DNA of 34,089 nucleotides, from positions 1 through 34,089 of IMG/VR virus record IMGVR_UViG_3300019754_000011; one strand, 5' to 3'. This DNA comes from a virus. The notes below the pieces were generated by a model. The model did not search any database, was not told the DNA's origin, and saw nothing but the letters and a program-made list of their open reading frames with translations. Positions within the stretch are counted from its first letter, which is position 1, and each line of letters starts with the position of its first letter. The position numbers and the translations under genes were made by a program. Of the stretch, positions 2,448 through 15,132 are shown one piece after another.

Positions 2448-3159
2448 GAGGCAACCTCTCTTCTATCATTATCAAATCAACCTGTTCTATTCTTAAATAA
2501 TCCACTTTATTAACTATATTATCATTTTCATTTATTAAAATCTTATACTTAGTAATAATAAAACTAGTATTAATCCACTCAAAAACAGCATGCCTTGCAT
2601 AAGCAAGAAAAGTGTCTAATTCAATTAATCTTTCTTTTGTTATAGTATACCTATTTCTAACACCTCTTCGCTTCATATAAGGAGTACTATAAACATCACT
2701 CATCGTTATTTCAGATTTCCCACTTCCCCAACTTCTAGGGGTACCAAGATTAAAACCTCCTCTCATAGCAGTATTAGCTAGAGAAAGATAAAAAGGAAGT
2801 CTTACAGCTCCAATAAATCTAGAAATAATACTTCCTGGGCTTAATTCATTTATAGAATCCACGCTTGCAATAATAGGATCAAATATAGTTGTAAAACCTA
2901 ACATATCTGATAATATATTTCCCCCCCCCACATTTATAATTTGCACCTGCACTAAGTCTGTTTTAGTAAAAACAAGTTTATCTGTATCATCTGCATCAAG
3001 AGTTAAAGAGATGCTATGATTTGTAAATAATTCACTTATTAGTTCATCTATAGATAAATCAGTTAATGCAGTAAATGTTTCAGCTGGAGAAGCTCCAAAA
3101 TAAAACTTTATTTGAGAATCCTTTATATTAAACACTTTTTCACTTTTTAAAATTATCAT
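2437..3159 (-). CDS. Putative distal tail protein
   Basis: A 240-residue protein directly after the tape measure, with an ATGA overlap. Nothing in it is recognised with certainty. Gene order (tape measure, this, hub-like protein) matches the distal tail protein of siphoviruses, which caps the tube at its lower end. The centre has a hydrophobic, Gly-rich stretch (about residues 110-150) followed by a basic patch (KRRGVRNR). The coding strand carries an uninterrupted run of nine G residues encoding GGG at about residues 78-80, striking in so AT-rich a genome; one base gained or lost there would truncate the protein. Assignment as distal tail protein rests on order and size. Confidence 0.6.
   Translation of the reverse strand: MIILKSEKVFNIKDSQIKFYFGASPAETFTALTDLSIDELISELFTNHSISLTLDADDTDKLVFTKTDLVQVQIINVGGGNILSDMLGFTTIFDPIIASVDSINELSPGSIISRFIGAVRLPFYLSLANTAMRGGFNLGTPRSWGSGKSEITMSDVYSTPYMKRRGVRNRYTITKERLIELDTFLAYARHAVFEWINTSFIITKYKILINENDNIVNKVDYLRIEQVDLIMIEERLPREV
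2921..2929 (-). repeat. G9 homopolymer tract inside a tail gene
   Basis: Nine consecutive C on the plus strand, that is nine G on the coding strand of the gene at 2437-3159, lying in frame across GTG GGG GGG GGA. Poly-G runs of this length are known slippage hot spots that switch genes on and off in several AT-rich bacteria. Whether this one varies is not known, and it is also a place where sequencing errors are likely. Confidence 0.7.
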
Positions 3160-5216
3160 ATTGACCCTTTTATTTTAGCCATACTGTCATCTAATGCAAT
3201 TAGCCATTGTTCCTCACGAGGAAATAAATTAACAACAGTCTCTTGCTTATATTCATCATCAAGCTTAATTCTATCATTAACGGCTTGCTCTTTGCTTGTA
3301 TCGCTGGATTCTGTTTCAGAGACTCCAGGGCTTCCTGCAAGGGCTTTTCCTGCATATCCCATTGCAACACCTGTTCCTATCTCTAAAGCACCAACCGCTG
3401 CAAGAGCAGCACCTGAAAAAGGCATTAAAGGGTTTGCACTTAATCCAGCAGCAATAAGGATATTTTTAGTACCATCTGCAACAAGAGCTCCTCCTGCTTG
3501 CTTCATAGCAAGCCCAACCATTTCAAATAAACTATGCTCTTGGTCATCCAGCATTGCAGAATACATTGCATTAGATGCACTTATTATTCTTGAGCCTACA
3601 GCCTCTTTTAACTTTACTCTTTGTTTATCTTTCTTTTCTTCTTCCTCTAGTTGTTTAGATGCAAGAATACCAGCTTCTGTATACATGCCTTTAAGTGCTT
3701 CTAAGTTCTTTTCTGCAACAGTTTTGAGTGATTCAGCTTCTGCATCTATAACTTCTTTATATATATTACTTAACTGAGCAATCAATTTTTCATTTGAATC
3801 AATTCTCTTTTGATTATCAATTTCAGTCTGCTTGTCAATTTCATTTTGTGCTTTTGCTCTTAATACAAGCTCTTCTAGTTGCACCTTAGTGTATTCTTTA
3901 GAATCCTGTTTAGCATCTTTAAGCCTTGTATTATAATGCTTAACATAAGCATCTACTGTTGCAAAATTCTTTGCAGTAAATTTATCCTCTAGAGATGCAA
4001 GCTCTAACCCTAATGCAAGCCTTTGAGCATTATATTTCTTTTTATTTGCAATTTTCTTTTTATCAAATTTCTCTTGCTCTTCTATTGTTTTCTTTTTAAA
4101 GAGTTTAAATTCACCAAATGCTGTTTTTATAGATTCTTCAGATAAAGTACCCTGAGCCTCTTCCTCAGCCATTCTTGCCCTAAAAATAGCAGATTCTGCT
4201 ATTTCTACCTTCATTGCTTTTGCCCAGGATAAACCAGTCTGCATTAAAAGATTATTTCTCATAAGTGCAAGTTCAACTTCTTTTTCACTTGTCACAACTT
4301 CAACAGCAAGCCCATTTCTAGCCTCATAAAGCTCAACTGCTTCAGATTGGCTAATATTTTGAGCCCTCATGATTTCTAGAACAGCATTAGCTTTAGTTTG
4401 ATTATCAGCCAAACCTTCACCAATAGATGTTCCAAAGTCCATAACTTTAACTAAAGCCGTTGTAGCACCATCTTTGATAGTTTTCCATAAATTAGAAACC
4501 TTTTGAAGTTTTTCAATATTCTTTACATGAACATTATTTGATATATCTCCATATTCTTTTACTTTCTCTGCTCCTGCATCCATCATCGCATTAAGTAGAG
4601 CAGTTTTTTTCTCTATATCTGTTAAAGAGTCTGCTGTTTTACCAATTTGTAATGCATAGGCCTTATATTCCGCTTGTGCATTAACAATAATACCTGTATT
4701 CTCCATTATAGCAGGGCTCATTCTAGCAATACCAGTTATAAAACCGTCTACAACATCTTCAACCCCTAAATTCTGAGCCAAAGCAAGCTTGGTTGATACT
4801 TTTATCAACTCTTCATATTTCTCAGCAGTAATTGGAACACCACGGATCAATGCAGCATTCATTGTTGCAGCCATATCACTAGCCCTTAACATACCCATAC
4901 TTAAAGACTCTGTCTTTACTACCATGTCTGCAAGTTCTTTATTCGCTGTCTCAAGCATATCGAAACTAAGCAACTTTCTTTCCATCGCAATACTAGCTTC
5001 AACAATTTTCTCCATTGCATAGAGACTTGCTCCAAGCGCAGCAGTATATTTCATTACACTTTCAGCCATATCGCCAAAACTTCTTGCAGTCTCTTTGCTT
5101 GCACTATCACTATCATCACCAACACTTTTTAACTCTTTTTTAACAAGTCTTAATTGCTCAATAGTTTGCTGTACATCAGCGATAAGTTTTAAATTGGCTG
5201 TATTACCTTCTGTCAT
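3156..5216 (-). CDS. Tail tape-measure protein
   Basis: A 686-residue protein, the longest in the window, starting at ATG with GGAG about 6 nt upstream. It has the standard tape-measure build: an N-terminal coiled coil with an Ala/Met-rich helical part (about 1-130), long Lys/Glu-rich helices through residues 380-560, and a hydrophobic Gly/Ala segment near 570-640. Tape-measure proteins span the tail lumen, set its length and are ejected with the DNA. At roughly 0.15 nm per residue this predicts a tail of about 100 nm. It follows directly the frameshifted chaperone pair that would coat it during assembly. A short acidic tail ends the protein and overlaps the next gene by ATGA. Confidence 0.9.
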   Translation of the reverse strand: MTEGNTANLKLIADVQQTIEQLRLVKKELKSVGDDSDSASKETARSFGDMAESVMKYTAALGASLYAMEKIVEASIAMERKLLSFDMLETANKELADMVVKTESLSMGMLRASDMAATMNAALIRGVPITAEKYEELIKVSTKLALAQNLGVEDVVDGFITGIARMSPAIMENTGIIVNAQAEYKAYALQIGKTADSLTDIEKKTALLNAMMDAGAEKVKEYGDISNNVHVKNIEKLQKVSNLWKTIKDGATTALVKVMDFGTSIGEGLADNQTKANAVLEIMRAQNISQSEAVELYEARNGLAVEVVTSEKEVELALMRNNLLMQTGLSWAKAMKVEIAESAIFRARMAEEEAQGTLSEESIKTAFGEFKLFKKKTIEEQEKFDKKKIANKKKYNAQRLALGLELASLEDKFTAKNFATVDAYVKHYNTRLKDAKQDSKEYTKVQLEELVLRAKAQNEIDKQTEIDNQKRIDSNEKLIAQLSNIYKEVIDAEAESLKTVAEKNLEALKGMYTEAGILASKQLEEEEKKDKQRVKLKEAVGSRIISASNAMYSAMLDDQEHSLFEMVGLAMKQAGGALVADGTKNILIAAGLSANPLMPFSGAALAAVGALEIGTGVAMGYAGKALAGSPGVSETESSDTSKEQAVNDRIKLDDEYKQETVVNLFPREEQWLIALDDSMAKIKGSI

Positions 5217-6028
5217 TTAGCTCTCCTGCATTCGCTTTCGCTCCTCTTCTTTTTGCCCTAAATATATTTCTCCATATTCATATATTAACCCATGCTCTAC
5301 ACTTATGTTTAATAGATTTAAAGAAGATCTTCTTAGTCTATTAAACAGCCTGTAAATCTCTGTATACTCCATATAGTACCAAACAGGACATATAGAAACA
5401 TACATGTTTTCAGAACCTGTTGCAGCAAAAAAATAGTCTCCGCCTTGCCTCTCGGCCTCAGGGATATAACCACAGTTATTAACCCTCTGATGCTTACTTT
5501 TCTTGCAGTTATGACAATTTCTCAGTATTTGTCCACCTTCAATTACGGCTACTACTTTTTTTTTAAATCTATCTTGTACTGAGCAAAACCTACCAGAATC
5601 TGATACATTGTGTTATAACTATCAAGTAGAGACTCCTCTGCAAGTTCTACAATATTATCTTTCCCCCACATACCTAGCTCTTGAATAAATTCTAAAGGTG
5701 CTGACTCCAAATTCTGAAATAAATCTATACTTACAAGCATATTTCTTAATTTATCATCTTTTTCGTTTTCATATTTTTTAAGCAAGCCTCTTACATCAAC
5801 AATTTTATCAATTTTTTTCTTAAAAATATCCATTTGCAATTCTTTTGTCAAGTCTAGCTTTTTAACTGTATAATCAATTTTTAACAAAGTTTTAACTAAA
5901 AAGTCCTCTCCATATTCTAGCTTAACAACCTTGCTTTCATTATTTTTAATATTTTTTTCTTTTTGAATATTTTTTTCTCTTTTCTTTGCTTTCTTGTCTT
6001 TTTTTTGTTTTCGGTTTTTTCCAAGCAT
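5217..6028 (-). CDS. Tail assembly chaperone, long form made by -1 frameshift (G-T type)
   Basis: The region 5555-5217 is open in the -1 frame relative to the short chaperone gene but has no ATG, GTG or TTG before 5405. The upstream part nevertheless reads as genuine protein, with a zinc-ribbon pattern (CHNC, then NNCGY, then SICPVW). A -1 slip at A_AAA_AAG (5561-5555) joins the frames exactly, giving a 270-residue fusion ending LGQKEEERKRMQES. In many siphoviruses the gene pair between the major tail protein and the tape measure is translated this way, yielding a rare long chaperone that helps tail tube assembly around the tape measure. Position, slippery site and missing start all agree. 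The zinc-ribbon type of T domain is a less usual feature. Fusion is inferred, not demonstrated. Confidence 0.8.
5552..6028 (-). CDS. Tail assembly chaperone, short form (G type)
   Basis: A 158-residue protein. The start is placed at ATG 6028-6026 because GGAG lies 6 nt before it; longer in-frame versions would begin inside a transcription terminator hairpin at 6065-6097, which makes them unlikely. The first 40 residues are very basic (QKKDKKAKKREKN), and the rest is helical and acidic. It sits between the major tail protein and the tape measure, the position of lambda gpG and its analogues. Translation ends with AAA AAA AAG TAG TAG, and the A-rich run just before the stop is the frameshift site that gives the long form. 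The function comes from gene order plus the frameshift arrangement; no sequence motif identifies the family. Confidence 0.75.
   Translation of the reverse strand: MLGKNRKQKKDKKAKKREKNIQKEKNIKNNESKVVKLEYGEDFLVKTLLKIDYTVKKLDLTKELQMDIFKKKIDKIVDVRGLLKKYENEKDDKLRNMLVSIDLFQNLESAPLEFIQELGMWGKDNIVELAEESLLDSYNTMYQILVGFAQYKIDLKKK
5555..5561 (-). promoter_or_regulatory. Programmed -1 ribosomal frameshift site A_AAA_AAG
   Basis: On the coding strand nine A and one G precede two consecutive TAG stops. The last seven bases, read A AAA AAG in the zero frame, are the same heptamer used by E. coli dnaX. Slipping back one base makes the ribosome read GTA GTA GCC and avoid both stops, entering the downstream frame. 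No convincing downstream stem-loop or nearby upstream Shine-Dalgarno stimulator was found by eye. Confidence 0.8.
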
Positions 6029-6051
6029 TGTTAACTCCATTTTCGGTTTGT

Positions 6052-6097
6052 AAAATAAAAAAAAGTGGGCTGTAAAACCGAAAAGAAAACAGCCCAC
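6052..6097 (-). terminator. Intrinsic terminator between major tail protein and chaperone genes
   Basis: On the minus strand a 9-bp perfect stem GTGGGCTGT/ACAGCCCAC (arms 6097-6089 and 6073-6065), with a 15-nt loop, is followed at once by eight T and then ATTTTA. This is a textbook Rho-independent terminator. It lies 28 bp past the major tail protein stop and before the chaperone start, so it should cut readthrough into the lower-demand tail genes. A second small hairpin (ATAAGCC/GGCTTAT, 6099-6119) lies between the stop and the terminator. Confidence 0.85.
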
Positions 6098-6124
6098 GAT
6101 AAGCCCAGTTTAGGCTTATTTTCA

Positions 6125-7315
6125 TTATTGAGGCAAAATAATAACAGGCTCTTTATCCGTCCTGTGATTCACATTTGCAACAACAGATATTGTAGAGTAT
6201 TTATCATTTATAGCTCCTCTATCTTTTGTAACAAATTTAACTCCATCAGCTTCAAAAGCATAATCTTTTTGACTTAAAAAGAAAGCATTGTCAGTTAAAG
6301 CTGATGCATCAGGTCCAAACAATTCAAGGTTGATAGCATTATTATCAAACATTAGCTCACCCTTGATAGATGGCTCTGTATACCACCCCGTAATATTATT
6401 AACCCCTCCAACATGAGTTCCAGGGTTAACTGTATGCTCTACATTTATTTCATTTAAAACAGGCATTGCTGTAACATAAAGCCCAGTTGCAGGATCTTTA
6501 ACAACTGCAACCTGAAAATTGAATTTAATAGGGTTATATTGCCCTTCTAAAGTTATATTAGTGGGCTTTGTATATCTCACCTTGTTTGCATCTTTATATG
6601 CAACACTAGCAGACATAATGTTATACATGTGCTTACCTTGCTTATCAACTGGATGGTCTTCTTTAATTGCTAGACTAGCACCTTTCATAACCTCGACTTT
6701 ACCATCGTTATCAACGATTATAAATTGAAAAGTAACTGTATCTTTAGGCCTTGCAACTTTACATTTTGTCTGATTATTAACATCTGCTGTTGCAACCATA
6801 ACAAGCAAGTCATCATCAGTTACTGGGTATTCTAAAACAAAGTCATCGAGTGAGACAGTCTTAATCTTATAAATAGATGTCTTATTGCCACTTTTGACAA
6901 CCTGGATAAAATCTCCAGATGCAAAACCTGAGCCACTTGCAACAGTTAAAGTCGTAACACCACTTACTGTTGAAACTGAAGAAATTGTTGTAGTGTTTGA
7001 TTTTTCTTCAAGTTCACCTAGTCCAGCCTCAATTAGAGCTTTATTAACAGCTGTTGCTAAACAGGATTTATCAAGATTTTTTGATGCATCAAGTTTTCCT
7101 GTAATTCTTCCTGCTGATATATCAGCATCAAGCTTTCTTTCATCATTCATATAAACTATTTCTAATAGTTCAGTTACACTTTCATACTTAAATCCATCAT
7201 TTTCAAACTTTATTTGCTGTACTGGATTTAAAGGGTTATATTCTTCTGCAAAACCATCCTCTACTCTCACATAAATACTTTTATTAGCATCAATATTAAA
7301 ACTTGTCATCTTCAC
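6125..7315 (-). CDS. Major tail (tube) protein
   Basis: A 396-residue protein starting at ATG after a GAGGTGAAG ribosome site. It is beta-rich, with a Thr/Ser/Val-rich stretch around residues 107-130, and the C-terminal half looks like repeated beta-sandwich strands. Its location, directly before a strong terminator, the frameshifted chaperone pair and the tape measure, is that of the tube subunit, present in many copies per tail. The terminator just downstream fits its need for higher expression than the following genes. At nearly 400 residues it is long for the family, so it may carry an extra decoration domain. The assignment comes mainly from order. Confidence 0.75.
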   Translation of the reverse strand: MKMTSFNIDANKSIYVRVEDGFAEEYNPLNPVQQIKFENDGFKYESVTELLEIVYMNDERKLDADISAGRITGKLDASKNLDKSCLATAVNKALIEAGLGELEEKSNTTTISSVSTVSGVTTLTVASGSGFASGDFIQVVKSGNKTSIYKIKTVSLDDFVLEYPVTDDDLLVMVATADVNNQTKCKVARPKDTVTFQFIIVDNDGKVEVMKGASLAIKEDHPVDKQGKHMYNIMSASVAYKDANKVRYTKPTNITLEGQYNPIKFNFQVAVVKDPATGLYVTAMPVLNEINVEHTVNPGTHVGGVNNITGWYTEPSIKGELMFDNNAINLELFGPDASALTDNAFFLSQKDYAFEADGVKFVTKDRGAINDKYSTISVVANVNHRTDKEPVIILPQ

Positions 7316-7322
7316 CTCTTAA

Positions 7323-7643
7323 TTATAAAGTTAGCTCTAAGTAAATTCTGCAAGACTGGTCAAGCCATTCACTTCTTGCAACAAAAAACTCCTCAAAATC
7401 CTCTACTACTTTTTCATTTATTTTCACATACTCGCCATAATTTACATAAGAAACCACTAACTCTATTTTGTAATTATTATAGTCACCATTTGGGGTGTTA
7501 TAACTTTTATCAACTCTATAGTAGTTAGTTTCTTCATCTGTTTGACTACTTTTATAATGTAGTCCGTTTCTATTCATTATTGTCTCAGTCAATTCTTTTA
7601 AGTCTTCTTCATTTTTTACACTAACAACGATTTGATCAAGCAT
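7323..7643 (-). CDS. Putative tail terminator / head-tail joining protein
   Basis: A 106-residue protein with mixed helix at the start (LKELTETIMNRN) and beta strands after it, an alpha-beta layout like small tail-terminator proteins. It is encoded immediately before the major tail protein, the usual place for the protein that caps the tail tube. No conserved motif is recognised, and the role is inferred from order and size. Confidence 0.55.
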   Translation of the reverse strand: MLDQIVVSVKNEEDLKELTETIMNRNGLHYKSSQTDEETNYYRVDKSYNTPNGDYNNYKIELVVSYVNYGEYVKINEKVVEDFEEFFVARSEWLDQSCRIYLELTL

Positions 7644-7644
7644 A

Positions 7645-8421
7645 TCAGACCCCTAAAGAAAAATCAATTGAATTATCATTATCATTATTAGGATCTAAAA
7701 CCTCGGTATTAGTTAGCGATTTATCTTTTGCTACTTTTATCTTATTTCTTATTCTACCTAATGCTTTATAGTATTCTGTATCAGCTTTAGTTACAGGACT
7801 ATCACCTTTACCAGCTTCAATTTTTTGAACCATTTTTAAAATCATTAAACCTTTCAGCTGTCCGATTCCTACAACATTTATAAAGCTAGCATCAAAACTA
7901 AAATCAGCAAGAATACTATCGACTGCAGTTCTTGAATGCAGCTCAATATCATAATCAGCAGCAAGACCATGATAATTAGCTTTCATTTCTGCAAAAGGAA
8001 TTTTAATTGCAAGAAAAACACTATTTACAAACAATGTCTCTGCGTCTGAAAAATAATATATTCCTTCCTTCATTGTTGCCAATAAAGTGACTAATGTTGC
8101 TTCACTTATTATAGTTATATCAGTTCCTGAGTTTTCAGGTATATGCTCTCCAAACTCAATTCTATTTGCTCCAATACCTTTTATATAATTATTTCTAGGC
8201 ACTCCACTTTGACCAGTTATTTTAACACTATCTCCAACCCCTAAAGAGTTTGGAATTGATGTAAATTCAGCAATAGTATTACTGAATAAAACCCCGTTAA
8301 CTGGAGCAGGGGAAACTGCATTATAATCAGTCCCATTAACAAGTAAATTTCCATCACAATCAGTTATTTTACCTGTAAAACCTACTTTCTTAAATGTCCC
8401 TAATTCACTTGTTAAAATCAT
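7645..8421 (-). CDS. Putative head-tail connector or virion protein
   Basis: A 258-residue protein, start ATG at 8421-8419, not recognised. The N-terminal 90 residues look beta-rich, with Gly/Asn/Pro turns (NSLGVGDSVKITGQSG). The C-terminal third is basic and helical (YYKALGRIRNKIKVAK) and ends in an acidic Asn/Asp-rich tail. It lies between a virion-morphogenesis protein and the putative tail terminator, so it most likely acts at the head-tail joint. Confidence 0.5.
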   Translation of the reverse strand: MILTSELGTFKKVGFTGKITDCDGNLLVNGTDYNAVSPAPVNGVLFSNTIAEFTSIPNSLGVGDSVKITGQSGVPRNNYIKGIGANRIEFGEHIPENSGTDITIISEATLVTLLATMKEGIYYFSDAETLFVNSVFLAIKIPFAEMKANYHGLAADYDIELHSRTAVDSILADFSFDASFINVVGIGQLKGLMILKMVQKIEAGKGDSPVTKADTEYYKALGRIRNKIKVAKDKSLTNTEVLDPNNDNDNSIDFSLGV

Positions 8422-8430
8422 AATAACCTA

Positions 8431-8859
8431 TTATAAAAATCCTGCATCTCTAAAGGCTTCATTTATTGCGCTGTATAATTCTTTTCTCAAAGCCTTTCCC
8501 CAAATAAGCACTTGCCAATTTTTTTTTCTATGAATTTCTCTCATTTTTAAATTGTTTGCTTCACCATTTAAAAATATTTCAAATCCACCATTATAAACTC
8601 TAAAATTTATACTTAAAACCATTTGCGATGTAACCTGTAAGTTTACTTCACCACTGTAGCCGTTTTTTATTTTCCAAGCCTTGTATTTAGGATCATAACT
8701 CAAGAATTTCGCCCCTTCGGCATTTCGCCCCTGGTTAATTAATCTTTTTATCTTAGAGTAAATTCTTGCAGCTATTCTATCCCAGTAGTAACGCTGGAGC
8801 TTGGTTAAGCTTTCATCTAAGGCTGTAGAGTCAAAATTAAATGTAATTCCATCAGCCAT
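8431..8859 (-). CDS. Virion morphogenesis / tail completion-like protein
   Basis: A 142-residue basic protein. Residues about 41-85 follow the pattern of the phage virion-morphogenesis family (Mu gpG and P2 gpS types, and HK97 gp10): a helix, then a segment with Y.P.Y..WK...G and a strand pattern VNLQVTSQMVLSI. Those proteins help complete the head or join it to the tail. The start overlaps the end of the minor head protein by 8 bp, and the next gene follows closely, so it belongs to the head-tail joining operon. The similarity is weak and judged by eye. Confidence 0.55.
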   Translation of the reverse strand: MADGITFNFDSTALDESLTKLQRYYWDRIAARIYSKIKRLINQGRNAEGAKFLSYDPKYKAWKIKNGYSGEVNLQVTSQMVLSINFRVYNGGFEIFLNGEANNLKMREIHRKKNWQVLIWGKALRKELYSAINEAFRDAGFL

Positions 8860-9610
8860 TGTCTACCTTCTTCTTTAATTTTTCAACTTCATCAACTGGA
8901 ATTAAAACAAAAGAATCTCTACACCCAGGATGCCCACCATTTGAAAAAATATCAGGCTTAATCCTTATCCATTCAGCACGAGTTTTGACTTGATTAATCA
9001 AGTTCATGCAAAAATCATCTTTCCTTTTATCAACTGGGCCAACATATTGGTATTGATCACCTTCTTTTTCTATTTTTAAAAAAACTTGGTTTTGAAATTC
9101 CCTGTTAGCAATACTTAAAGATTCTTTCAATAAAAATTTAGACTTATTTAAACTTTTATTAATTTTAACTGATAAATCTTTTGCAATACTGGTTGTTCCT
9201 GCATCAGTTAGTGTCAATATTGCACTATCTAAAACATCATTAAATATTGCAGAAGGAATCCTTGATGTTGTTGCATTAACTAAACTATATATATCATTTA
9301 AAAAATTAGCTCTACCAATACTTACATTGTACAGCCTTTCAAAACTGCTTACAGCTTCACCAATTTTTCTTCTAAGTGCAATATTTGTAATTTTTTGTAA
9401 TTTATCTATATCTTTATCTAAAAAAAGGAAAGTACCACTGCTAAATAAAGTATTATTAGGTTTTATTTTTGCAATAGCCTTTCCTAAATCTTTTTCTTTT
9501 ACTGCATCTCTTATTTTTTTCTCAGTTAAAGAAATAAGAACATTACTATATTTATCAATACTTTCATCAATAACCTTATCAATAACTTTTGGTAAATCAG
9601 TAATGTTCAT
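8852..9610 (-). CDS. Minor head protein, Mu F-like
   Basis: A 252-residue protein. The N-terminal 190 residues are helical. The C-terminal part has the signature of Mu gpF-like head morphogenesis proteins: YQYVGPVDKRKDDFC, then a spacer, then GGHPGCRDSFV, where the family usually has H..C.C. These proteins sit inside or at the portal vertex of the capsid and help assembly. It follows the major capsid gene and precedes the connector genes. The second metal-type Cys is replaced by Asp (HPGCRD rather than HPRCRC), a modest departure from the family pattern. Confidence 0.65.
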   Translation of the reverse strand: MNITDLPKVIDKVIDESIDKYSNVLISLTEKKIRDAVKEKDLGKAIAKIKPNNTLFSSGTFLFLDKDIDKLQKITNIALRRKIGEAVSSFERLYNVSIGRANFLNDIYSLVNATTSRIPSAIFNDVLDSAILTLTDAGTTSIAKDLSVKINKSLNKSKFLLKESLSIANREFQNQVFLKIEKEGDQYQYVGPVDKRKDDFCMNLINQVKTRAEWIRIKPDIFSNGGHPGCRDSFVLIPVDEVEKLKKKVDNG

Positions 9611-9620
9611 TTTCTAACCT

Positions 9621-10658
9621 CTAAGGAGCAACAGGTACAATACCTTTATAGATTCCATTTGGATTTAAACAAACAATATCACCGCTTATAAAACCATAGA
9701 TAGTAGCTCCAAGCAGTGTATCCCACTTAATTTCAAATCTAAAACCCATAGAGTCATTAATACCATCATCGTGATAAACTCTTGCGATATCAGCTGTATC
9801 ACCAACACCAATAAAGTTATCAGGATTTGCACTGTCATAGTAAGAACCTGTTGCTTTCATTCCGTTTTTGCCAGGAATAACATTATCACCATACTGTCTT
9901 TCTTGAATATTTCTTACTTTTTCACCAGTAAAAACATCAGCTGCAAGTTGTGGATCTGAAGCATGTAATAAAAAGATAACTTTATCTACTCCAAAAGTAT
10001 AATTGTTAACATTTACTTGAAATGCTTCAAAAGTGTTAACCATGGCTTTATAAGGATTTTTATCAGTTGTTGATAAAGCTGTAATACCTTTATTTCCATA
10101 ATTAAAATTATCAGGTCTATCACTTGCATCACCAACAAGAGGTAAAATACCAAAAGCTTTTTGATAAGTCTTTGCACTTGCAGTTCCGATATTGATAAAA
10201 AAGTCAATTGTTTGCTGTCTTGCATGATTTCTTAATTTATCAATAAAATCTGTTATTACTGGCTTTATTTTTTCATTTGACATTAACCCAACAACATTTG
10301 CACTTGCTAGCCTTCTTGTCATCATATCACCATTAATTCCAAAATCACTGCATTTATCAACAGGAATAGTAAAATCAATACCAGGAGAGTTTGGCAATTT
10401 ATACTTTCCAGCTGTTGCAGAGCCATCTAAAATATTTGCATTATGGTTACCGCCTTGGTAAGCACCCTTATCATCTCTTTCAGTTACTTCATTTGCAAAT
10501 GTGATTAAACTATCAGTAAAATCTCTATGTTTATGAGATTTTACATTTCCCCATGTGAATACATCAATTAAATCTCTATATTCACTAACTTTTGGTGCGA
10601 TAAAATAATGTAAAATCCCTAGCCATTCTTCTTTTGTTGTGGTGTTTTGATCTGGCAT
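9621..10658 (-). CDS. Major capsid protein
   Basis: A 345-residue protein with a strong ribosome site (AAAGGAG) before ATG 10658-10656. Position after portal and scaffold-like genes and before the minor head and connector genes marks it as the capsid shell subunit. The central part contains a long helix followed by beta-rich segments, consistent with the HK97 fold but not proven by eye. There is no sign of an N-terminal protease-cleaved extension: the acidic leader is short and the scaffold is a separate gene. Confidence 0.8.
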   Translation of the reverse strand: MPDQNTTTKEEWLGILHYFIAPKVSEYRDLIDVFTWGNVKSHKHRDFTDSLITFANEVTERDDKGAYQGGNHNANILDGSATAGKYKLPNSPGIDFTIPVDKCSDFGINGDMMTRRLASANVVGLMSNEKIKPVITDFIDKLRNHARQQTIDFFINIGTASAKTYQKAFGILPLVGDASDRPDNFNYGNKGITALSTTDKNPYKAMVNTFEAFQVNVNNYTFGVDKVIFLLHASDPQLAADVFTGEKVRNIQERQYGDNVIPGKNGMKATGSYYDSANPDNFIGVGDTADIARVYHDDGINDSMGFRFEIKWDTLLGATIYGFISGDIVCLNPNGIYKGIVPVAP

Positions 10659-10660
10659 CT

Positions 10661-11332
10661 CTATTCTCCTTTATTTAAAAAATCTTTAATAACCTTTAAA
10701 ATTGCTTTCTTGTTTCCTAGGCCTTTAATATCAACATTTTTTGCAGCACACCACTCAGATAATTGATAAGTATCTAAACCTTTTAAAGCATCATAACTTT
10801 TTTTAGCATCATTTTCAAGTTTCAAGTTATTACTTGCGAACTTTTCTTTTTCAGAATCCATTTTTTTTAATGAAAAGTCTTTAGTTCTTGATAAAGAAAC
10901 TTTAATTTTTGCAATGTCAAGTGTTGCTGTTATTTCTAGCTCTTTATCAAACATTTTTACAAGACTGTAAACATTTATCTTTTTTAATTTTCTAATTGTT
11001 GTATCAAGATTTTCAAGTAAAACCTCTCTTTCTTCAGCTGTAAGAGATTCTATAAGCATCTTAGACATCTTTAAGTACTTATCACTTGTTGCGAATACAA
11101 CATGATCTTTTTTAATGAAAATTTCATAATCAGGAAAATCTTTTACAAAAAGCCATTGATTTTGGTCAAAAAATTCTTTAAATTCCGCAATTGTTTTAAC
11201 TTCAATCCAATCATTATCATTCCTAAAATCATAAGGTAAAGGCACTGTATAACCAGGCCTTGTTATATCAATTTTTCTATGAATTATTGCATTAGCAATT
11301 TCTTTAGTTGAATTAATCTTTTGTTTTCTCAT
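10661..11332 (-). CDS. Capsid-module protein with C-terminal SAP/HeH-like helices
   Basis: A 223-residue protein between scaffold and major capsid genes. The last 40 residues (LDTYQLSEWCAAKNVDIKGL, then KKAILKVIKDFL) fit the two-helix SAP or HeH pattern, small nucleic-acid or protein-binding modules often found at the ends of phage head proteins. The middle is a charged coiled coil (about 95-180). The N-terminal part has many aromatic residues and resembles nothing I know. Likely an assembly or internal head protein, based on position and the end domain. Confidence 0.55.
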   Translation of the reverse strand: MRKQKINSTKEIANAIIHRKIDITRPGYTVPLPYDFRNDNDWIEVKTIAEFKEFFDQNQWLFVKDFPDYEIFIKKDHVVFATSDKYLKMSKMLIESLTAEEREVLLENLDTTIRKLKKINVYSLVKMFDKELEITATLDIAKIKVSLSRTKDFSLKKMDSEKEKFASNNLKLENDAKKSYDALKGLDTYQLSEWCAAKNVDIKGLGNKKAILKVIKDFLNKGE

Positions 11333-11345
11333 TTCTCAACTCCTA

Positions 11346-11954
11346 TTAGTATTTTTTTGTATTGTAAGCGTCATTTAATTCTTTTACTGCATTTGTTGTT
11401 CTTGCACTCCAATTTGAATTACTATTGCTACTTTTCTGATTTATGTCAAGGTCGTGATAGTGCTTCTTATTAGTATTTACACCTAAAAGAGTTAGATAAT
11501 TGCTTAATTCAGAACTACTTGAATTTTCAATATTGATATTTGCAGCTTTTAAAGTCTTTTTATGATCATCTGTCAGACTTGTTACAAGTGCAAGTTTTTC
11601 CTTTTTTTCATTCTCTTCAGCAATTTTTAAAGCTTCTTGTTTTGCTTCTTGAGCTTTTTTAGCATCTCTTGCATCAAGAAATTCTTGCATTTCAGATTTA
11701 GTCATTGGTTTTTCATTAACCTTTTTATCTTCTTTTTTAGATTTCTCAGGCTCTTGATTATCAACAATAGACTTCATTAAAGCCTGCATATTTTGATTCA
11801 ATATATTAAACTGATCAACAGTAACATATTTGTCAGCCTCATTGTTTTCATTATCAAGATTTTCATCAAGATTTTCATTGTTTTCATTATCAAGATTTTC
11901 GTCAAGATTTTCATTGTTTTCATTATCAAGATTTTCAGTTTTTAGATCTACCAT
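11346..11954 (-). CDS. Scaffolding protein
   Basis: A 202-residue, very hydrophilic protein. Residues about 7-40 are a tandem repeat of acidic Asn/Glu/Leu units (ENLDNENN ENLD). A coiled coil rich in Lys, Glu and Ala follows (about 82-125), and the C-terminus is basic, ending YNTKKY. An acidic N-terminus, central coiled coil and short basic tail between portal and capsid genes is the classic scaffold layout: the basic tail binds the capsid protein and the coil organises the procapsid. No catalytic protease motif is present, so it is not a protease-scaffold fusion. Confidence 0.75.
   Translation of the reverse strand: MVDLKTENLDNENNENLDENLDNENNENLDENLDNENNEADKYVTVDQFNILNQNMQALMKSIVDNQEPEKSKKEDKKVNEKPMTKSEMQEFLDARDAKKAQEAKQEALKIAEENEKKEKLALVTSLTDDHKKTLKAANINIENSSSSELSNYLTLLGVNTNKKHYHDLDINQKSSNSNSNWSARTTNAVKELNDAYNTKKY
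11841..11936 (-). repeat. 36-bp tandem repeat (2.7 copies) in the scaffold gene
   Basis: Copies start at 11841, 11877 and 11913; the third is cut at 24 bp. The first two differ by a single base (CATC versus CGTC). Because 36 is a multiple of three, changes in copy number would only lengthen or shorten the acidic arm of the scaffold by 12 residues each. Confidence 0.9.
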
Positions 11955-11955
11955 C

Positions 11956-13437
11956 TTACAGCTCCTTGCTGTTATCTTTAACAGCTAATTTATTAATTTC
12001 AGCAATCTTTTGTTCTGCAAGAGAAAGAGGAATGTCTCTAACATAACTATAAGCTTCAGCATCTGTATAGTAATTCCCTAGTCTCATCGCATCAGCAAAA
12101 TCAAGTATATTCATGGGGTCAGCCTTAACCTCTAGAGGCCTAAAAATAATACCTTCATAGTTAAAGTTTTGCCCTGTCATTTCCTCCATCTTCTCAACAA
12201 GTTTTCTATTAAAAGTTTTAGCTTCAGACCTCTTCTTGTTTCTAACTTTATTTAGGTCTTCCATCTCTAACCTTTTATGCTCGCCACTCTCTTGAGAATT
12301 TCTTGAATTAGCAGCAATAACACTACTTTTGCTTACTCCAAGTTCAAGAGCTTTTTGAGTTAATATTTCCCCTTCAACATATAAAGCATCTTTTAAAACT
12401 TGAATATCCCCCATATCAAAGACCTCAGCTTTTGATTCTGTTGTAAGCTTTAAAGCTTTTCCAGTCCTTCCAAGGCCTTTAACACCTTTTTTAAATTCCT
12501 CTCCACCTTCTTCAGTCATAAAGATAATTTGACTTAAAAGTTTAGGCTCTGCATTAAACCAGCCCCAAGATAAAGTTGAAATAAAAGACCATTCTAAATC
12601 AACAAGAGGGTTTCCAAGTGCTTTTTCTAATCTATATTTAGATCTTTCAATAAATGGCATCACTTCAATTTCACCAATATTTTCACCATACTGCTTTACA
12701 TATTTAGATTGATCATTATAGTAAGTAAAACTCTTAACTACACTATCAAGTGGTTTATCTACTGCATAAATAAATATTTTACCCTTTTTATCATCATTTT
12801 TACTAGCTTCAACTTCATCAAGATTAACATCAGCAGACAAGCTACCTTCAAAGCCTTGACTTGTCATATCAACACCTTCAGTTTCATCATCAACTTGAGC
12901 TCCGAAAAGTAGCCCAGCACCTGTTGTTTTTTGATTAAAAGAAGTCCTTACATAACTACTTAAATCTTTAACATTTTTTTCAGGAATATAAATAATTGTT
13001 GTTTCATCATCATGTTTTAAAAACCAAGTACCACTTTTTTCATCATTAAAATATTGTGTTGCATCAAGAGCAACTACCTCAAGTTGGTCTCTCTCCTTGA
13101 CAGGTTTAAATTTAATCATTGCAGCTGATTTACCACAGCAGTTAAGATAAATATCTGTATTTTGCTGAGCTTGATTAAAATCACCTATATCAATCAAACC
13201 TTTAAAGTCAACAACTTGCTCAAAATCTTCAGTAAATAAATTGCTTGTTGCATCCATTAAACTAGTAAAGAATCTCAATTCAAGAATTGTCATCTTGCCA
13301 TTATCTTTAAATCTTGTCCTGACATAATCTTCAATGTCACTCCAATCTGTTTTAAAGTAACAAGACATTGTTTTGTTTAGATTATCAAAATCAGGAATAG
13401 TTTTTGGATCAATCTTTTCTTTTTTTCTTTTAGCCAC
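11956..13437 (-). CDS. Portal protein
   Basis: A 493-residue protein starting at GTG with AGGAGG upstream, directly after the large terminase. The N-terminal half is mixed alpha-beta, a long helical region follows, and the C-terminal part (about 380-450) is a charged helix ending in QNFNYEGIIFRPLEV. This arrangement fits the portal, the dodecameric ring through which DNA enters and leaves the head. The order terminase, portal, scaffold, capsid is canonical. Residues 165-215 hold a Gly/Asp-rich loop (GAQVDDETEGVD) of unknown role. The assignment rests on order, size and general layout. Confidence 0.8.
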   Translation of the reverse strand: MAKRKKEKIDPKTIPDFDNLNKTMSCYFKTDWSDIEDYVRTRFKDNGKMTILELRFFTSLMDATSNLFTEDFEQVVDFKGLIDIGDFNQAQQNTDIYLNCCGKSAAMIKFKPVKERDQLEVVALDATQYFNDEKSGTWFLKHDDETTIIYIPEKNVKDLSSYVRTSFNQKTTGAGLLFGAQVDDETEGVDMTSQGFEGSLSADVNLDEVEASKNDDKKGKIFIYAVDKPLDSVVKSFTYYNDQSKYVKQYGENIGEIEVMPFIERSKYRLEKALGNPLVDLEWSFISTLSWGWFNAEPKLLSQIIFMTEEGGEEFKKGVKGLGRTGKALKLTTESKAEVFDMGDIQVLKDALYVEGEILTQKALELGVSKSSVIAANSRNSQESGEHKRLEMEDLNKVRNKKRSEAKTFNRKLVEKMEEMTGQNFNYEGIIFRPLEVKADPMNILDFADAMRLGNYYTDAEAYSYVRDIPLSLAEQKIAEINKLAVKDNSKEL

Positions 13438-13446
13438 CTAGCCCTC

Positions 13447-15132
13447 CTATCCAATTTGTTCAATTGTTGTAGTTCCCCAAACACCTTTCCATAAGTACGA
13501 CAAGGCATCCCCTACATGAGAGTGTTCATCTTTATTAACACTATCAGTTTTTTCATTATATGCATAACTCTCTATATTTACAATAAGAGCTCTATTTTTT
13601 TTATTTATTAATATTTTATTGTGTTTAAAATCTTGTCTCATAAGAGCATGTGTTTTATATATCTGTGTATTACTTACACCATACAAGTCAAGCCCTTCTT
13701 TTCTTAAAAGTGAAGCAATACCAAAACCTTTGAATGATACCTGAGCCTTACTTGCAATATCAACATAAATTGGGGCTTTCTCATGCCCTTGATCTTGAAA
13801 CCAGTTTTTCACATCAAGGGGCTGAAAGTCATTAACTTTAAATACATCATCTAGTATTAAAGTCCCATTAGTTTTATGTGCCCAGCCTGTTAAATAAACT
13901 TGACTAGTACCACCATTATCACCGCCTGAAACTCTTATATAATCAGGGTTTGCTCTAATCGCTCTTTCATCTAAATCAATATAATTTTCTTCATCAATAT
14001 CTTTCCAGACTCTACCGCGTCTAGCCTTGGTCGGATTAATATCAAGCTCTCTTGCCATCAACACATCATCATAGCCAATTTTAGCAGCCTGATAGTCATA
14101 CCAAGCCCTATTGCATACAGGGTTATCTTGCCATCTAAAAGTGAAATAATCCCAGTGCCTAATATCATTATCAACCTTTCTTTGATAAAAAGGAAATGAA
14201 GCACTTCTATATGTAGAATATAAAAACACCCTGTCAACAGATTGACTAAAAGAACCAAAAATATCAGTTGCTTGGTTTGGGTACATTTCACAAACTACAT
14301 CAACTTCATCAACAAAAATCACATCTCCAGCAAACCCAACAGCAGTTCCTTTACCTAATACTTGGCCTTGTAGGGAATTGCCGTTTATTACGATATGTTT
14401 CTGCCCTGAATAAAACTTTCTACCCTTTTCAAAACTCCAATACTTCTTTCTATCTTCCCAGTCTTTAGGTATAAAGATGGATTTTCTCAGTAACCACCTT
14501 ACACCCTCAAAGGTGGAGTTCATGGCGATATCTTTATCACCACCATCTAAAGAACTTAAATCTTTATGTGTTGCAAACATAACAAGAGATTTTCCATGCT
14601 TCAGACACCATGACATGGCTTGTTTCATGACAGCAGATATGCCTTGTCTTCTTGATTTTTCAATATGAATATTTTTGTCACCATTTTGGATAGCAAATAT
14701 CAACTCTAACTGATTATCAAAAGGTAGAAAACCAATTTCCCTTGATTTACCAGTTGTTCTATTTACATCATAAGAGTATCCATCAATTAATATATCAAAT
14801 AAAAACTCTTTTTCAGCTAGTGCTCTTACTGCTTTTTTTAATTTAGGATCTTGAACAATTTTTAATAATATCTTTCTTCTAAATTTAATATATTTTCTAC
14901 CAAATTTGGTATACTTTCTATTTAATTCTTTTCTTGTATAATTTTCTTTGTTTTTTTGAAATAAAGACCATTTAGATAACCAGCTCTTTAATACAGTATA
15001 TATATTTTTTGTTTGCTGGTGATGGGAATCACCAGGAACTATTTTTACTACTTTATTATCATAAAAGGAATGATTTCTTAAACTATCAGCTCTTTTATAT
15101 GCAGTATGTCTTAGTTCCTGTCTTAATCCCAT
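13447..15132 (-). CDS. terL: Terminase large subunit
   Basis: A 561-residue ATPase and nuclease that pumps DNA into the procapsid and cuts it. Residues 158-166 are the Walker A variant EKSRRQGIS, and 271-278 are Walker B with the catalytic Glu (VIFVDEVD). The nuclease domain keeps its three acidic metal ligands: D405 in GGDNGG, D458 in YVDIAS and D542 in GDALSYLW. All key residues are present, so the enzyme should be active. The first 110 residues are a basic extension. It lies between an anti-defence gene and the portal. Whether packaging is headful or cohesive-end cannot be read from the sequence. Confidence 0.95.
   Translation of the reverse strand: MGLRQELRHTAYKRADSLRNHSFYDNKVVKIVPGDSHHQQTKNIYTVLKSWLSKWSLFQKNKENYTRKELNRKYTKFGRKYIKFRRKILLKIVQDPKLKKAVRALAEKEFLFDILIDGYSYDVNRTTGKSREIGFLPFDNQLELIFAIQNGDKNIHIEKSRRQGISAVMKQAMSWCLKHGKSLVMFATHKDLSSLDGGDKDIAMNSTFEGVRWLLRKSIFIPKDWEDRKKYWSFEKGRKFYSGQKHIVINGNSLQGQVLGKGTAVGFAGDVIFVDEVDVVCEMYPNQATDIFGSFSQSVDRVFLYSTYRSASFPFYQRKVDNDIRHWDYFTFRWQDNPVCNRAWYDYQAAKIGYDDVLMARELDINPTKARRGRVWKDIDEENYIDLDERAIRANPDYIRVSGGDNGGTSQVYLTGWAHKTNGTLILDDVFKVNDFQPLDVKNWFQDQGHEKAPIYVDIASKAQVSFKGFGIASLLRKEGLDLYGVSNTQIYKTHALMRQDFKHNKILINKKNRALIVNIESYAYNEKTDSVNKDEHSHVGDALSYLWKGVWGTTTIEQIG

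Follow-up and report, generated by a model that had tools for sequence, protein, structure and literature searches.

A predicted lambda-type tail chaperone fusion at a nine-A tract in a virus from IMG/VR, and a candidate wider family for its cysteine-containing second part

The window analyzed here, the 34,089 nts of IMG/VR record IMGVR_UViG_3300019754_000011, appears to encode a pair of tail assembly chaperones, G and GT, which would be joined by -1 recoding of the lambda type at a tract of nine A's. We put the probability that this predicted fusion is real at roughly 0.86. The features of the locus are as follows.

6125..7315, minus strand: probable major tail protein (PHROG 584, weak match, E 0.0016)
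5552..6028, minus strand: gene G, predicted short tail assembly chaperone of 158 aa, ending in LKKK and a stop
5556..5564, minus strand: A9 tract with the overlapping -1 heptamers A_AAA_AAA and A_AAA_AAG, both in slip phase
5555..5561, minus strand: slippery heptamer A_AAA_AAG in the phase of G, with the G stop TAG (5552-5554) immediately after it
5217..5555, minus strand: predicted T part in the -1 frame, GTA at 5555 to the stop TAA at 5217-5219 (112 codons before the stop)
5472..5516, minus strand: CHNC...NNCGY, the first three conserved cysteines of T (codons start at 5516, 5507 and 5474)
5388..5390, minus strand: fourth conserved cysteine of T (CPVWYY)
3156..5216, minus strand: tape measure protein, assigned through its homologue in Rhodobacteraceae phage LS06-2018-MD06 (hereafter LS06)

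On the minus strand, the 3' end of G reads TTA AAA AAA AAG TAG (L-K-K-K-stop), which places the heptamer at 5561-5555 in the X_XXY_YYZ phase, and the G frame past the slip site reads TAG TAG CCG TAA. The original prediction had described this end of G, a -1 frame of 112 codons and a run of 50 codons free of start codons, and re-reading of the sequence returned exactly these coordinates: the earliest ATG, GTG or TTG of the T frame is the ATG at 5405, codon 51. The overlapping G and T frames had also been placed between the major tail and tape measure genes, and the PHROG 584 match upstream and the tape measure homology downstream agree with this. Neither G nor T has matches in Pfam, PHROGs or NCBIfam. 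Since tail chaperone ORFs show low sequence similarity between phages (PMC5009743), a match to a catalogued chaperone family is not a defining feature of such pairs. Most virion genes in the region 3156-15132 have no significant Pfam or PHROG match, and the replication and recombination genes of the window resemble those of many bacterial groups and do not settle its host.

In phage lambda, where a -1 frameshift produces gpGT alongside gpG (Levin 1993; Xu 2004, 2013, 2014; all as cited in PMC5009743), the tape measure protein is bound by gpG as well as by the rare gpGT, whose T part recruits the major tail protein; G and GT are made at about 30:1 (PMC5009743). The window resembles lambda in the place of the pair, the -1 offset, the slippery heptamer at the end of G and a T part with no usable standard start in the window; it differs in that its heptamer is A_AAA_AAG within an A9 run and in that T carries four conserved cysteines, and no sequence relation of the pair to known chaperone families could be detected. 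Most translation of G would end at the TAG and yield the 158-aa chaperone, and in a minority of expression events a -1 shift at the A9 tract would carry the reading on into T, to give a GT fusion of 270 aa. By analogy with lambda, the tape measure protein would be bound by G, and the rare fusion would recruit the major tail protein through its T end.

Taken by itself, the heptamer is weak evidence: the phage is AT-rich, and A_AAA_AA[A/G] occurs in frame 20 times in the genes of the window, with four A9 runs on this strand. When 18 such heptamers were checked, however, a long -1 frame was found behind one, that at 5561 (112 codons), and the other 17 open 1-20 codons. Only one further A9 site (8527) could be aligned with a relative, and it is not conserved.

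Conservation of the junction was examined in a close relative from an independent metagenome, L004 (same record as L005 and L012; IMGVR_UViG_3300033146_004599), which was found by a terminase search (78% identity) and shares 41% identity with the window in G, 56% in T and 49% in the tape measure protein. The original prediction had proposed to check related phages for conservation of the heptamer; L004 keeps the A tract (as A10) and its -1 phase, along with the T frame and the four cysteines. Over T codons 4-53, which lie upstream of any start codon in the window, dN is 0.38 and dS is 2.8 between the two phages, and the other two frames of the same stretch contain 4-8 stops. This purifying selection, together with the stops in the other frames, makes it very probable that translation covers the stretch ahead of the window's first start codon. 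Searches of viral and genome collections with the major tail, tape measure and terminase sequences returned only L003 and L004 as close relatives; L003 has the same terminase, and its contig stops short of T. One match of a T-only search, L002, was rejected on reading as a different cysteine-rich protein that shares KHQRVNNC, probably by chance. Two further in-frame A_AAA_AAG heptamers of the window, at 1923 (gene 777-2447) and 10985 (gene 10661-11332), are also kept in this relative (L005); their -1 frames are 12 and 10 codons long, and their conservation possibly reflects that of lysine codons only.

More distant relatives were reached through the tape measure protein, which is related to that of LS06 (E 3e-8; profile E 4e-10). 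Upstream of the LS06 tape measure gene, a G-like gene ends in GAA GAA AAA AAA GCA TAA, and a -1 frame reads KKSIIANI...CDNC...C...CPGYY; the latter is annotated merely as two small ORFs. The 'ribonucleotide reductase' annotated at 5877-6341 of this phage (L009, OP947162) occupies the G position and is likely a misannotation. A tape measure profile built from three sequences retrieved 80 viral contigs, and a -1 frame that follows a slippery heptamer and ends by the tape measure gene was present at 37 of 82 loci, compared with 3 of 82 for a +1 control. The CxxC...C...C T domain occurs in 27 of the 80 viral contigs and in nine named isolate phages, with a -1 junction that is nearly always A_AAA_AA[C/G/A]; 30 loci at the profile threshold include three of the isolates, some loci are near-identical, and the T of L056 is a cysteine-spacing variant. 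The isolates are Alteromonas phage P24, Microcystis phage Mae-JY22, Rhodobacter phages RcZahn and RcDurkin, Rhizobium phages RHph_TM16, RHph_I4 and L338C, Agrobacterium phage JP1, and LS06. The zinc ribbon in T had originally been considered an uncommon variant, a description with which these counts disagree; the family is widespread.

Most members of the family have the heptamer A_AAA_AAC, some have A_AAA_AAG or A_AAA_AAA, and two have G_GGA_AAC; the G stop directly follows the heptamer in 16 of 27 members. Like the window, isolates including RcZahn (gp27/gp28) and RcDurkin (gp42/43) have a cysteine-containing T in the -1 frame after A_AAA_AA[C/G/A], adjoining the tape measure gene, whereas RHph_I4 and L338C use G_GGA_AAC instead. 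Unlike the window, many isolates have a Shine-Dalgarno (SD)-like stimulator, and most have only 6-7 A's. T identity between the window and the four isolates aligned is 17-19%, and in the regions read none of the nine carries a fusion annotation. In Alteromonas phage P24 (L093 3004-3312, MK241539), the conserved T part lies between G and the tape measure gene and has no annotated gene.

Membership was assessed with a T profile built from 25 other T sequences, with the window, L004 and LS06 left out. Its top six-frame matches were exactly the three T frames (E 0.001, 0.0034 and 0.0085; next 1.3). In a repeat search, from which the first three residues, including the slip-site lysines, had been dropped and to which control phages had been added, the window T came first (E 0.037), LS06 second, and L004 fourth, behind a control. 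A profile-profile comparison without the slip-site lysines scored better than 200 of 200 column shuffles. On sequence alone, the case for placing the window T in the wider family is modest; once the homology of the tape measure proteins and the shared location, reading frame and slip site are counted as well, it is good. The family as a whole has no family-level match in Pfam, PHROGs, NCBIfam or PDB and appears to be undescribed in the libraries and papers searched; the recoding is of a known kind.

T5-like chaperones (AKFV33 orf144/orf143 and Vibrio phage Thalassa gp29/gp30) are likewise encoded by two short overlapping genes ahead of the tape measure region, and the LS06 tape measure protein, a relative of the one in the window, is also related to the T5-like one. 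They were rejected as relatives of T, as their second part has neither CxxC...C...C nor an A-rich heptamer. Upstream of other related tape measure genes (L028, L030, L079, L019, L025 and others), T parts of other types, which lack these cysteines, follow the heptamers C_CCA_AAA, C_CCA_AAC, A_AAT_TTG, G_GGA_AAC or A_AAA_AAG, and phages whose tape measure proteins are related appear able to exchange the T domain.

As to how the frame is shifted, we consider a ribosomal event to be the likelier route, with a chance of about two in three, because the junction is unchanged in relatives that have only 6-7 A's, usually with an SD-like stimulator upstream. Such an element was found 6-17 nts upstream of the heptamer in 19 of 27 members (a count inflated by near-identical contigs), compared with a background of 17%. 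The elements are mostly GGAG(G) at one fixed spacing, which resembles known stimulated sites (PMC4066793). The original prediction had called the site dnaX-type, and this description is apt for the heptamer but not for its surroundings: A_AAA_AAG and a stop soon after it are shared with E. coli dnaX, whereas the upstream SD and downstream hairpin of dnaX have no counterpart found in the window. The SD stimulator is also absent from L004, and folding of the window, L004 and LS06 revealed no shared downstream hairpin or structure (fold z 0.63 over 87 nts or -2.30 over 131 nts for the window, -2.38 for L004 and 0.29 for LS06).

Alternatively, RNA polymerase may add or lose A's on the A9 tract, such that an mRNA with ten A's would be read straight through as the G-T fusion. 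This transcriptional slippage is possible, though we hold it to be clearly the less likely of the two. Bacterial polymerase slips efficiently on nine A's or T's (PMC5009743; PMC1088944), and the dnaX gene of Thermus thermophilus, which like the window has a nine-A run in the sense strand, works in this way (PMC5009743; PMC1088944). Moreover, the four members with A8-A10 runs (the window, A9; L004, A10; LS06, A8; L070, A10) are precisely those with no SD-like stimulator (0 of 4 versus 19 of 23 with 6-7 A's). Low GC (30-31% in three of the four) confounds this link, which represents about three lineages (P about 0.04 by lineage). On the other hand, the run in most relatives is only 6-7 A's before a C or G, too few for polymerase to slip efficiently, and their junction is unchanged. 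Slippage in Thermus dnaX also differs in outcome, since its slipped product is the shorter one and makes up about half of the total, a proportion far from the G:GT ratio of lambda. Because A6-A7 members are unlikely to depend on polymerase slippage, ribosomal shifting is likely ancestral. Polymerase slippage on the A9 tract may add to or replace the ribosomal shift in the window phage, and the long runs without SD would fit, within the limits set by the low GC, a replacement of the stimulator by either a stronger ribosomal slip site or polymerase slippage. Tentatively, an undescribed zinc-binding T family may serve tail assembly in phages of several bacterial groups, with a signal in two exchangeable forms, namely a short A_AAA_AAC heptamer with an SD for ribosomal shifting, or an SD-free A8-A10 run at which polymerase slippage has partly or wholly taken over.

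A different explanation is that T is a separate gene with an internal start behind an SD-like GA[A/G]GGTGGA, for which L004 would use its ATG and the window a rare codon such as ATA or CTG, possibly through re-initiation after the G stop. It draws on L004, where an in-frame ATG lies 10 codons past the slip site (10242) and is preceded by the SD-like GAGGGTGG; the window retains GAAGGTGG at the matching place. However, the stretch between the slip site and the L004 ATG is conserved as protein (VVAVIEGG in the window, IIAVIEGG in L004), as would be expected if it is translated, and its E-G-G codons are ordinary coding sequence that may resemble an SD by coincidence. In RcZahn, the ATG of T overlaps the G stop, and the gene is annotated from that ATG. 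No clear frameshift signal was reported for this phage (PMC8601537), but its gp27 holds A_AAA_AAC, and the homology of its T frame with that of Rhizobium phage RHph_TM16 runs across the junction. Because of the overlapping ATG, RcZahn may use either route, frameshift or own start. The absence of a start codon from T, part of the original prediction, thus describes the window, with its 50 codons without ATG, GTG or TTG, and 11 of the 27 members, which have no start codon ahead of the first CxxC; it does not describe L004 and RcZahn, both with an early ATG, and in L004 a relative with a potential independent start, which the prediction had named as contrary evidence, has to some extent been found. 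We consider a separate T gene improbable for the window.

It is still less probable that a sequencing or assembly error dropped one A from a true single fused ORF, or that T is a frameshifted pseudogene. The frames would join with one extra A, and homopolymers are error-prone, but the same one-base offset occurs in L004, from another metagenome, and in relatives with short tracts (A6C, A7C), isolates included, and T is under purifying selection. TAG can be leaky in some hosts. Read-through of the TAG that ends G is nevertheless ruled out for practical purposes by three in-frame stops (TAG, TAG and TAA around CCG) and by the position of T in another frame.

Between the major tail gene and G, the window contains at 6040-6097 (minus strand) a hairpin, GTGGGCTGT..ACAGCCCAC, followed by eight T's; together with a hairpin upstream, it has a fold z of -5.7. 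Just ahead of the ribosome site of G lies AAACCGAAAA (6049-6040), an exact reverse complement of the hairpin loop TTTTCGGTTT (6084-6075). L004 has a hairpin with different bases at the same place and keeps the TCGGTTT/AAACCGA loop pairing. From these two sequences only, this element is a possible pseudoknot, terminator or attenuator that would set the levels of G/GT and the tape measure protein.

With the predicted -1 recoding as the preferred reading, we also considered the nature of the T part itself. The CHNC and NNCGY elements are present as first described, and a fourth cysteine (CPVWYY, 5390) had gone unmentioned. Of the four cysteines, one does not vary among 22 T sequences, and the other three are conserved in at least 90%. 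The 'zinc ribbon' label is based on cysteine spacing alone: the best PDB match by sequence had an E of 2.3, which gives T no relative there, and an AlphaFold2 model of T on a two-sequence alignment (pLDDT 35) was too poor for use or for a fold search. The four cysteines probably bind one zinc ion, which would hold the N-terminal part of T together.

The G/GT frameshift is a textbook case, and T is hard to spot in diverged phages, being start-free and having little conserved sequence. Four cysteines together with A_AAA_AA[C/G/A] ahead of the tape measure gene form a signature that recovers T across phages of different hosts, and it caught T where it was unannotated (Alteromonas phage P24), fragmented (LS06) or reported as lacking a signal (RcZahn; PMC8601537). 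A structural zinc in T, if true, could help explain the contact of T with the major tail protein, and the T family lends itself to comparing ribosomal frameshifting with polymerase slippage at the same gene in nature.
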